Shown piece by piece: positions 4,946-6,214 of a stretch of DNA of 23,032 nucleotides. The translations under genes and the position numbers were made by a program. Below the pieces are notes generated by a model, which saw only the letters and a list, made by a program, of their open reading frames with translations, was not told where the DNA came from and did no database searches. The DNA is taken from IMG/VR virus record IMGVR_UViG_3300025083_000243, positions 1 to 23,032 of that record. One strand, 5' to 3'. Numbering within the stretch: position 1 is the stretch's first letter; the number at the start of each line of letters is the position of its first letter. The stretch comes from a virus.

Positions 4946-5062
4946 ATTGACACAATATAAATGTAAGGTTTTCAATATGTCAACCCATTAAATAAAATAA
5001 ATCATAATTAATTTCATACTATATAATGCATAGATAAAACGAACGTGTCCTATTGTGTCAAT
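4946..5062. repeat. 11-bp perfect inverted repeat pair around the early promoter
   Basis: ATTGACACAAT at 4946-4956 and its exact reverse complement ATTGTGTCAAT at 5052-5062 flank the leftward promoter. A 10/11 match of the second copy is found again at 5559-5569 overlapping the other leftward promoter's -35. The left copy touches the -10 and predicted start region, so it could be an operator. The repeat also contains TTGACA/TGTCAA, so part of the similarity may reflect promoter sequence. Confidence 0.4.
4954..4983 (-). promoter_or_regulatory. Leftward sigma70-type promoter of the early operon
   Basis: On the minus strand, TTGACA (4983-4978), an 18-bp spacer and TATATT (4959-4954; 5 of 6 consensus). 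The predicted start is near 4947, leaving about 25 nt of leader before ATG 4921. Its position directly before the first leftward gene supports function. Confidence 0.75.
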
Positions 5063-5173
5063 CTGTTTGGATCATCCTTGGATTTGTCATGGATATCAGT
5101 GGGTTAAATCCATTTGTATTTACTTGGTGTCATTGCCCCGACAATCTTTAAGCATCCCTGTGTCATTCCTACA

Positions 5174-5199
5174 ACACTGCGATGGATTTACCACAGTGT
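5174..5199. repeat. Inverted repeat ACACTG...CAGTGT
   Basis: Six-base arms (5174-5179 and 5194-5199) separated by 14 bases that contain a smaller TGG/CCA pair. It could fold as a stacked hairpin or act as a two-half-site operator. It lies in the non-coding region left of the predicted small RNA. Confidence 0.4.
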
Positions 5200-5207
5200 G
5201 ATACTTT

Positions 5208-5247
5208 TGCAACTACCTAGGGTGTAACATTTGTGCAACACTAGGGT
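5208..5247. repeat. Imperfect direct repeat, iteron-like
   Basis: TGCAACTACCTAGGGT (5208-5223) is repeated as TGCAACACTAGGGT (5234-5247), differing by two inserted bases in the first copy. The copies are spaced 26 bp start to start. Two copies are too few to call iterons, but they lie in the non-coding region next to a G-rich hairpin. Confidence 0.45.
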
Positions 5248-5326
5248 ATTGACCAAGGGGGCTTGGGGGTATCCTTCTATATGTACATTGTACCAAAACA
5301 TTTTCTAAGGATTTTCTTAGGCATGC

Positions 5327-5363
5327 AAAAAGAAACCCACCAAAGGAGTTAACCAATGGTGGG
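5327..5363 (-). terminator. Intrinsic terminator of the predicted leftward small RNA
   Basis: On the minus strand, CCCACCA (5363-5357 complement side) pairs with TGGTGGG (5342-5336 side) across a 14-nt loop, followed at once by TTTCTTTTT (5335-5327). The uridine run is present only in the leftward direction, so the element acts on minus-strand transcripts. It isolates the upstream promoter from the early operon. Confidence 0.75.
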
Positions 5364-5480
5364 CTGCATGTAATATCTGTATGGGTGGTGGTGCCTACAG
5401 TAGAATCTGGACGTGTCCCTAAGCTCTACCGTAAGTACCTTGCGTAGACTACCAAGCTTAGATAAACATTAGAGTAATGG

Positions 5481-5519
5481 ATTATACCTTGGTATAGCTA
5501 TAGTATATATACTTATACC
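5481..5519. repeat. AT-rich palindrome cluster
   Basis: Overlapping dyads: TATACC-TT-GGTATA (5483-5496), TATAGCTATA (5493-5502), the 12-bp palindrome AGTATATATACT (5502-5513), and GGTATA (5491-5496) with TATACC (5514-5519). It lies in the initially transcribed part of the leftward small RNA. Candidates are an operator array, a cruciform, or a DNA-unwinding element. Confidence 0.5.
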
Positions 5520-5528
5520 GCCTGGCGG
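5518..5528. promoter_or_regulatory. GC-rich 11-bp dyad just after the leftward start site
   Basis: CCGCCTGGCGG is a perfect dyad (5-bp arms, one central base) in otherwise AT-rich DNA. It covers about +6 to +16 of the leftward transcript from the perfect promoter. It could be a repressor operator, or form a 5' stabilising hairpin in the RNA. Confidence 0.45.
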
Positions 5529-5539
5529 CTAGTAATGAA

Positions 5540-5568
5540 ATTATACACCTTATTCTTACTTGTGTCAA
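5540..5568 (-). promoter_or_regulatory. Perfect-consensus leftward sigma70 promoter
   Basis: On the minus strand TTGACA (5568-5563), exactly 17 bp, then TATAAT (5545-5540): all 12 consensus bases with ideal spacing. Start expected at A5533. It is 570 bp upstream of the early operon's own promoter and separated from it by an intrinsic terminator, so its main product should be the short RNA. Confidence 0.8.
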
Positions 5569-5616: not shown

Positions 5617-5646
5617 TTGACATATATATCACACCCATGGTATACT
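5617..5646 (+). promoter_or_regulatory. Rightward sigma70 promoter with extended -10 for the late genes
   Basis: TTGACA (5617-5622), an 18-bp spacer ending in TGG, then TATACT (5641-5646; 5 of 6). The TGN before the -10 makes it an extended -10 promoter. Predicted start near 5653, about 30 nt before the small terminase ATG at 5684. It is the only clear rightward promoter before the structural genes. Confidence 0.75.
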
Positions 5647-5683
5647 ACGTAAATTATTAATAGTAAAGAGTGTGAAACCAAAC

Positions 5684-6214
5684 ATGATGTTCCAGTACGA
5701 AAACTTCAAAGGCTCTAACGGCAAGACAAAAACTAAGAGCTTATTCTATGAGTTATGTTATTCGGATACAGAAGATGCTGTGTTCACACTTAAAGATAGA
5801 GACCTAGAAGCTCACGGCAAGATGTACTTGTCATTACAGAAGCTATACCTACAGATGGCTCCAGCTGACCCAACAGAGTACGAGTTTGCTCAGACAGTCT
5901 TTGGTTCTTGGGATATATGGCAGAACGTGTCAAATGCATCAGGCGTTAAGCCTCACATATCCAGATGGAGAAAAGAGGTAGAGGTTAAGGTTAAGTCAGA
6001 AGCTATCAAAGCTATAGCTGAAGAGATGAAGTCTAACGGAAGAAGTTCCTTTAGTGCAGCCAAACTCCTATTGGATAAAGGTTGGTTAGACAAAGACACA
6101 GCTTCAGCAGCTAAAGGTAAACTTAAAGCTAAAGAAGTAGAAGACGAAAACAAAGCAGCACTAAATCTTCTCAATGAAGATGCTGAACGATTAGGCTTGA
6201 ATAGAGCTAACTAA
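5684..6214 (+). CDS. Probable terminase small subunit
   Basis: This 176-residue protein probably recognises phage DNA and loads the large terminase. The C-terminal half carries 'SFSAAKLLLDKGWL' (about residues 128-141), a helix-turn seen in small-terminase-like proteins of marine phages, with long charged helices around it (VEVKVKSEAIKAIAEEM before, KGKLKAKEVEDENKAAL after) suited to oligomerisation. The N-terminal half (FQYENFKGSNGKTKTKSLFYEL) is not assigned. It is the first rightward gene, about 30 nt from the promoter. The start is uncertain: ATG 5684 is preferred; a GTG at 5672 would have AAAGAG only 1 nt upstream, which is too close, while ATG 5684 has it about 13 nt away. It is separated from terL by the fibre genes. 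The call rests on remembered similarity and position, so a different DNA-binding role is possible. Confidence 0.6.
   Translation: MMFQYENFKGSNGKTKTKSLFYELCYSDTEDAVFTLKDRDLEAHGKMYLSLQKLYLQMAPADPTEYEFAQTVFGSWDIWQNVSNASGVKPHISRWRKEVEVKVKSEAIKAIAEEMKSNGRSSFSAAKLLLDKGWLDKDTASAAKGKLKAKEVEDENKAALNLLNEDAERLGLNRAN

Follow-up and report, generated by a model that had tools for sequence, protein, structure and literature searches.

Phage phi29 encodes near its genome end a small RNA (pRNA), transcribed from a host promoter towards that end. Trans-acting small RNAs are known in other phages, as PreS of lambda and VpdS of VP882 (PMC12197685), which act on host or phage transcripts. In T3 and T7, maturation and packaging are set off by a polymerase complex pausing at the concatemer junction (PMC3276506). 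The pseudo-ToxI RNA of phage PhiTE is an antitoxin mimic with tandem repeats that can expand (PMC3475682). The locus described here represents a new family within a known kind, the phage small RNA genes. Like PreS and VpdS, it is a small noncoding RNA that stands by itself in the genome of a phage; PreS and VpdS, however, belong to temperate phages, bind Hfq and have known effects, whereas the present unit, a predicted RNA gene, belongs to a T7-like podovirus and is fixed at the genome terminus.

Cobaviruses are widespread marine phages of Rhodobacteraceae. The window, i.e. the whole stretch of 23,032 nt analyzed (positions 1 to 23,032 of the virus record IMGVR_UViG_3300025083_000243), comes, as judged from its sequence, from a cobavirus of the Veravirus side (Zobellviridae, Cobavirinae). 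A podovirus is indicated by the encoded proteins, with primase/helicase on the minus (early) strand, and tail fibres, large terminase, portal and major head protein on the plus (late) strand; the large terminase is of the ordinary type. The nearest records are Roseobacter phages CRP-5 and CRP-4, Lentibacter phages ICBM1-3, P12053L and SIO1. The annotations of ICBM2, CRP-4 and CRP-5 list no RNA polymerase gene. The features of the locus are listed in Table 1.

Table 1. Position of the RNA unit and of neighbouring features in the window
Feature	Position	Strand	Basis or remark
Separate early-gene promoter, TTGACA-18-TATATT	4954..4983	-	11/12 consensus bases
Inferred direct terminal repeat, with AATGTACATATAGAAGGATACCCCC at its start (5289)	5130..5289	-	homology to ICBM2 and ICBM1 repeats; far limit 5130 guessed from the 159-bp ICBM2 repeat
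Conserved double box (AAGAAAATCCTTAGAAAATG), flanked by terminator and terminal repeat	5290..5326	-	comparison of termini
Intrinsic terminator, hairpin and U tract	5327..5365	-	fold z -4.1; covariation
Predicted noncoding RNA, about 207 nt	5327..5533	-	start inferred about 7 nt past the -10 box
Conserved motif GGACACGTCCAGATTCTAC, core CAGATTC, 5' of terminator	5400..5418	-	representatives vs. shuffles
Palindrome TATA[GC]TATA	5499..5507	.	single copy in window, in first ~35 transcribed bp
5' GC hairpin GCCGC/GCGGT at RNA start	5517..5529	-	z -1.5 in window (weak)
Sigma-70 consensus promoter, TTGACA-N17-TATAAT	5540..5568	-	12/12 consensus bases
Divergent promoter for late genes, TTGACA-18-TATACT	5617..5646	+	11/12 consensus bases
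First late gene, phrog_8035	5672..6214	+	borders RNA unit on the side away from the repeat

The promoter of the unit (TTGACA at 5568-5563, TATAAT at 5545-5540) is the sole 12/12 site at spacers of 16-18 bp in the 23-kb window. Among ten close relatives, window included (clade A), both hexamers are invariant (0%), while the spacer between them diverges by 0.18 (18.2%). At the other end of the unit, residues 5365-5357 pair with 5342-5334 to form the terminator stem AGCCCACCA/TGGTGGGTT, the tail TTTCTTTTT spans 5335-5327, and the RNA 3' end reads AGCCCACCATTGGTTAACTCCTTTGGTGGGTTTCTTTTT. The hairpin was missed by an automatic terminator scan, because its apical region exceeds the 8-base loop. In a set of 18 distinct terminators that spans diverse clades, 95.8% of the stem cells pair, and changes on both sides of the stem number 27 (8.2 +/- 2.1 in shuffles); stem covariation is 0.658 vs. 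0.251 +/- 0.037, none of 500 shuffles being as high. These figures support a terminator acting at the RNA level, although covariation alone shows no function for the RNA product. The CCTTGG-loop-CCTTGG terminator core was discarded as an RNA-specific signature, being found also in the central bidirectional terminator of ICBM2.

Neither an ORF of at least 8 aa with Shine-Dalgarno and start within the predicted RNA (5533-5327), nor an ORF conserved in the unit among relatives was found, in keeping with a phage small RNA gene. The perfect minus-strand promoter, the GC-rich-stem intrinsic terminator and the roughly 205 nt lacking any usable ORF between them, all claimed in the preliminary description of this DNA, were recovered upon closer analysis. 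The unit appears to be a discrete gene for a noncoding RNA, equipped with a promoter and a terminator of its own and probably strongly transcribed; strong expression would be sustained by the host polymerase.

The RNA is conserved among close relatives. Mean pairwise difference in the ten clade-A members is 0.061 (6.1%) for the RNA, 0.191 (19.1%) for third codon positions of the adjacent gene, and 0.243 (24.3%) for the flanking spacer upstream of the promoter. The first 94 nt of the RNA differ by 0-3%, and no substitution, but a single 2-nt indel, is found at 5533-5500 across the clade. The interval 5389-5352, which contains the first arm of the terminator, is near neutral overall (17.5%), and the constrained body is therefore taken to extend from about 5533 to 5395. 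Evolving more slowly than third codon positions, the RNA body is, by this comparison, under purifying selection among close relatives. Between clades it is replaced in both sequence and length, the latter being very variable. Mosaic units were also found: a clade-B 5' hairpin is joined to a clade-A body in L013, a clade-A 5' hairpin to a different body in L020 (L numbers denote individual loci).

The free variation of the body between clades would fit a functionless product, promoter and terminator serving only to regulate or insulate the intergenic region, for example by directing supercoiling or blocking read-through. This is quite unlikely: the body is constrained within clade A, the CAGATTC motif persists, and insulation needs no perfect promoter. 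Mere polymerase passage would not need a constrained body, and selection on the latter supports a function of the product; a functional RNA is favoured over transcription alone for this reason.

Constraint on the sequence is not matched by a conserved fold. A 5' GC mini-hairpin and a CTAAGCT/AGCTTAG stem had been proposed within the RNA. The former is present at 5529-5517, at weak significance (z -1.5), and hairpins of differing sequence, individually weak, are found at this position in about 14 of the 23 representatives. The latter exists as letters (CTAAGCT at 5461-5455, AGCTTAG at 5425-5419), but does not hold as an RNA stem: it is absent from the predicted best fold of the window RNA, shows no covariation, and is broken, with no compensating change, in three of nine close relatives (L004, L005 and L006). 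Promoter and terminator are conserved together in relatives; this internal stem is not conserved with them. None of the pairs predicted for the clade-A body changed on both sides, and 20 cells are broken; no global fold of the body conserved among relatives was found. A shared central stem just upstream of the motif was rejected as too weak (0.47 vs. 0.36 +/- 0.06 in shuffles, 1/40), and is missing in the clade of the window. As judged from these alignments, clear covariation is limited to the terminator stem.

Homology searches with the unit were negative. No Rfam covariance model matched at the gathering threshold or up to E 5, in line with the earlier impression that no recognised family is represented; ARAGORN detected no tRNA or tmRNA in the unit, a sensitive nucleotide search in phage records gave chance-level matches only, and a plasmid search gave none. 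A same-sense likeness of GGGACACGTCCAGATTCTAC..GGCA to 16S rRNA (E about 10) was dismissed as chance, the extra matching bases being lost in relatives.

The CAGATTC motif is kept across clades in which the remaining body has turned over. It is exact in 9 of 23 representatives (shuffle mean 0.1), and found with at most one mismatch in 17 of 23 (shuffle mean 2.9), counts which are not independent, since the representatives are related. The motif is missing or diverged in units L112, L060, L081 and L096. The motif region showed no unusual pairing with phage gene starts in the window phage or CRP-5; in ICBM2 one gene is matched to a degree reached by only 1% of shuffles, and this gene had no match elsewhere. 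Tandem repeats of 13-32 nt reside in the body of about 12 representatives, 0 of 100 shuffles being as good in each case. The repeats take in the motif in L027 and L091, as expected of what may be a multi-copy binding site; in ICBM2 they involve the sequence immediately 5' of the motif, and the repeat content differs between L021 and L022. No tandem repeats were found in the window RNA or in its close relatives. In L010 a palindromic insert of ~15-30 bp (AGAAGGCGTAGTCTTTGACCACTT type) lies inside the RNA, splitting the motif; inserts of the same type are found directly after the terminator in L012, L016 and L017.

Repeats varying in number and period, fast turnover and a strong promoter recall RNAs mimicking an antitoxin or another defence RNA, in the manner of PhiTE pseudo-ToxI. 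Both pseudo-ToxI and the cobavirus RNA are noncoding, and repeats occur in some cobaviruses; yet the two share no sequence match, the RNAs of the window and its close relatives lack repeats, the Rfam search returned no antitoxin family, and an exact search for the conserved 21-mer found none in 84,980 bacterial and archaeal genomes. An anti-defence decoy of this type is very unlikely.

The unit lies at a genome end. In ICBM2 and ICBM1 genome ends were fixed by PacBio reads (PMC6775973). The ICBM2 direct terminal repeat is annotated at 1-159 / 40749-40907, and opens with ATTGTACATACAGCAGG. The window carries the same repeat-start landmark on the minus strand at 5289 (AATGTACATATAGAAGG), which places the RNA unit just inside the right genome end. 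The unit is transcribed towards the DNA end, and its U tract stops 37 nt short of the repeat; the terminator is found 37-38 nt ahead of the repeat in many diverse members. The double box between the two is a candidate terminase recognition site, and an altered form of it precedes the terminal repeat also in relatives devoid of the RNA unit. The repeat start of cobaviruses has a signature, seen at many loci (5326-5270 in the window, minus strand), made up of a double GAAAA box followed by GTGCA|TTGTACATACAGNAGG, which provides a handy landmark for genome ends in metagenomic contigs.

On its other side the unit is flanked by phrog_8035. Homologues of this gene immediately precede the large terminase/packaging gene in PA11, ICP2 and two other Zobellviridae, and because of this synteny, its only basis, phrog_8035 probably encodes the small terminase subunit of Zobellviridae. 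The predicted structure of the protein, of low confidence (pLDDT 65), found no PDB match by fold or sequence. In cobaviruses, tail-fibre genes separate phrog_8035 from the large terminase. The view of a small RNA unit insulated from the early operon stands as far as a noncoding gene under its own promoter, closed by a terminator, is concerned; its place at the right genome end, beside the cut site and next to the first late gene, is not simply one of early-operon insulation.

The distribution of the unit was monitored in 71 distinct terminus regions, obtained by scanning IMG/VR with the terminal-repeat landmark and pooling the result with further loci; a unit was scored when a promoter matching at least 10/12 consensus bases was found about 200-390 bp upstream of the repeat. 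Units were found in 46 of 71 termini. The spacer is 17 bp long in all 46, and 41 carry the exact TTGACA-TATAAT hexamers. The promoter-terminator pair is beyond chance, as dozens of related phages have it in this very position. The unit is missing from all 14 Siovirus-side termini, which retain the terminal-repeat site. In a tree of the probable small terminase these 14 termini form one clade, and the unit is spread across the Veravirus-side clade. ICBM1 and P12053L have the terminal-repeat site and no such promoter facing it, CRP-4 and L066 a weaker promoter (TTGACA-17-TACCCT). L083 escaped the threshold solely through a masked -35 region; L033 (IMGVR_UViG_3300021964_001234), which carries the unit, was not counted because other sequence, apparently a gene, lies between terminator and repeat site. 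The unit is listed in none of the annotated relatives compared, and neither promoters nor intergenic or non-coding features came up in a term search of the main text of the paper on cobavirus genomes (PMC6775973).

The palindrome TATA[CG]TATA, often extended to TGTTATA[CG]TATAACA, is found in one or two copies per relative genome, mostly in terminus regions (at 287 in ICBM2, 147 and 40138 in ICBM1, 42 in P12053L, 40344 in CRP-4 and 38982 in CRP-5). It lies within the first 35 transcribed bp of the unit in the window and CRP-5, and inside the terminal repeat or close to it in ICBM1, ICBM2, P12053L and CRP-4. It is a possible site for a phage DNA-binding protein.

A cis-acting unit may be envisaged in which transcription towards the end, or the RNA as a primer, aids concatemer processing, duplication of the repeat, or replication. 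It would correspond, with the host polymerase at work, to the right-end promoter and concatemer-junction pause of T7; the two have in common the link to packaging genes and a strong promoter that is close to the right end and faces the terminal repeat. Placement between the probable small terminase gene and the repeat, pointing to the end, the steady distance of the terminator from the repeat, and the near-unique palindrome also marking termini all speak for it. T7, however, uses a phage polymerase; the cobavirus unit has a host sigma-70 promoter and is missing in the sister genus, where Siovirus-side relatives keep the repeat site, and transcription, rather than running through the repeat to a junction pause, is predicted to end at the terminator 37 nt before it. 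Constraint on the RNA body in close relatives is a further point against. Kept alive by the location of the unit beside the cut site, a role in cis is nonetheless rather unlikely. The broader proposition that the phage DNA end is formed or packaged with the help of the RNA, or of its synthesis by the host RNA polymerase, is also unlikely, somewhat more so; such a step would be host-driven, limited to one cobavirus branch, and would have no described counterpart.

In size, host promoter, genome-end position and direction of transcription the unit also resembles phi29 pRNA, a structured RNA forming part of the packaging motor. The two have no common fold, and no Rfam model matched the cobavirus RNA, the body fold of which is not conserved and the length of which is very variable; moreover, the large terminase is ordinary, and the unit is missing in relatives with a portal about 68% identical. 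A pRNA of this type is highly improbable. Absence from the Siovirus side would argue against a general need of the unit for packaging. Since an entire sister branch lacks the unit, an accessory role in trans, as base-pairing RNA or decoy, is preferred to that of an essential packaging component.

The best explanation, to which we assign a probability of about one half (0.48), is that the unit is a conserved noncoding RNA gene of Veravirus-side cobaviruses, its product a stable trans-acting or decoy RNA, its terminator an insulator of the repeat. The host sigma-70 RNA polymerase would start at a promoter of maximal strength, transcribe the unit in the direction of the terminal repeat, and halt at the intrinsic terminator just before the cut site. 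The product, framed by the 5' hairpin and the terminator, may build up as a stable small RNA, and may act in trans in the course of infection, its binding partner being either an RNA of host or phage contacted through the CAGATTC region, or a protein titrated by the RNA as decoy. The terminator would double as an insulator, keeping transcription out of the terminal repeat. In favour of this view are the joint conservation of promoter and terminator in 46 termini, the covariation of the terminator stem, the constraint on the RNA body in close relatives, the survival of the motif, the tandem repeats of some relatives, the absence of the unit from the Siovirus side, and the precedent of phage sRNAs acting in trans. 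Against a trans-acting or decoy RNA count the unremarkable pairing of the motif with phage gene starts, the body structure, which is not conserved, the loss or divergence of the motif in some units, the lack of repeats in the window RNA, and the fixed place beside the cut site, which a role in trans leaves unexplained.

An exact-consensus host promoter beside the terminase cut site defines an RNA gene that can be tested, as cultivated hosts are available for ICBM2 and CRP-5. The outcome would be either a new phage regulator of a major group of marine bacteria, or a transcription step in the formation of phage DNA ends.
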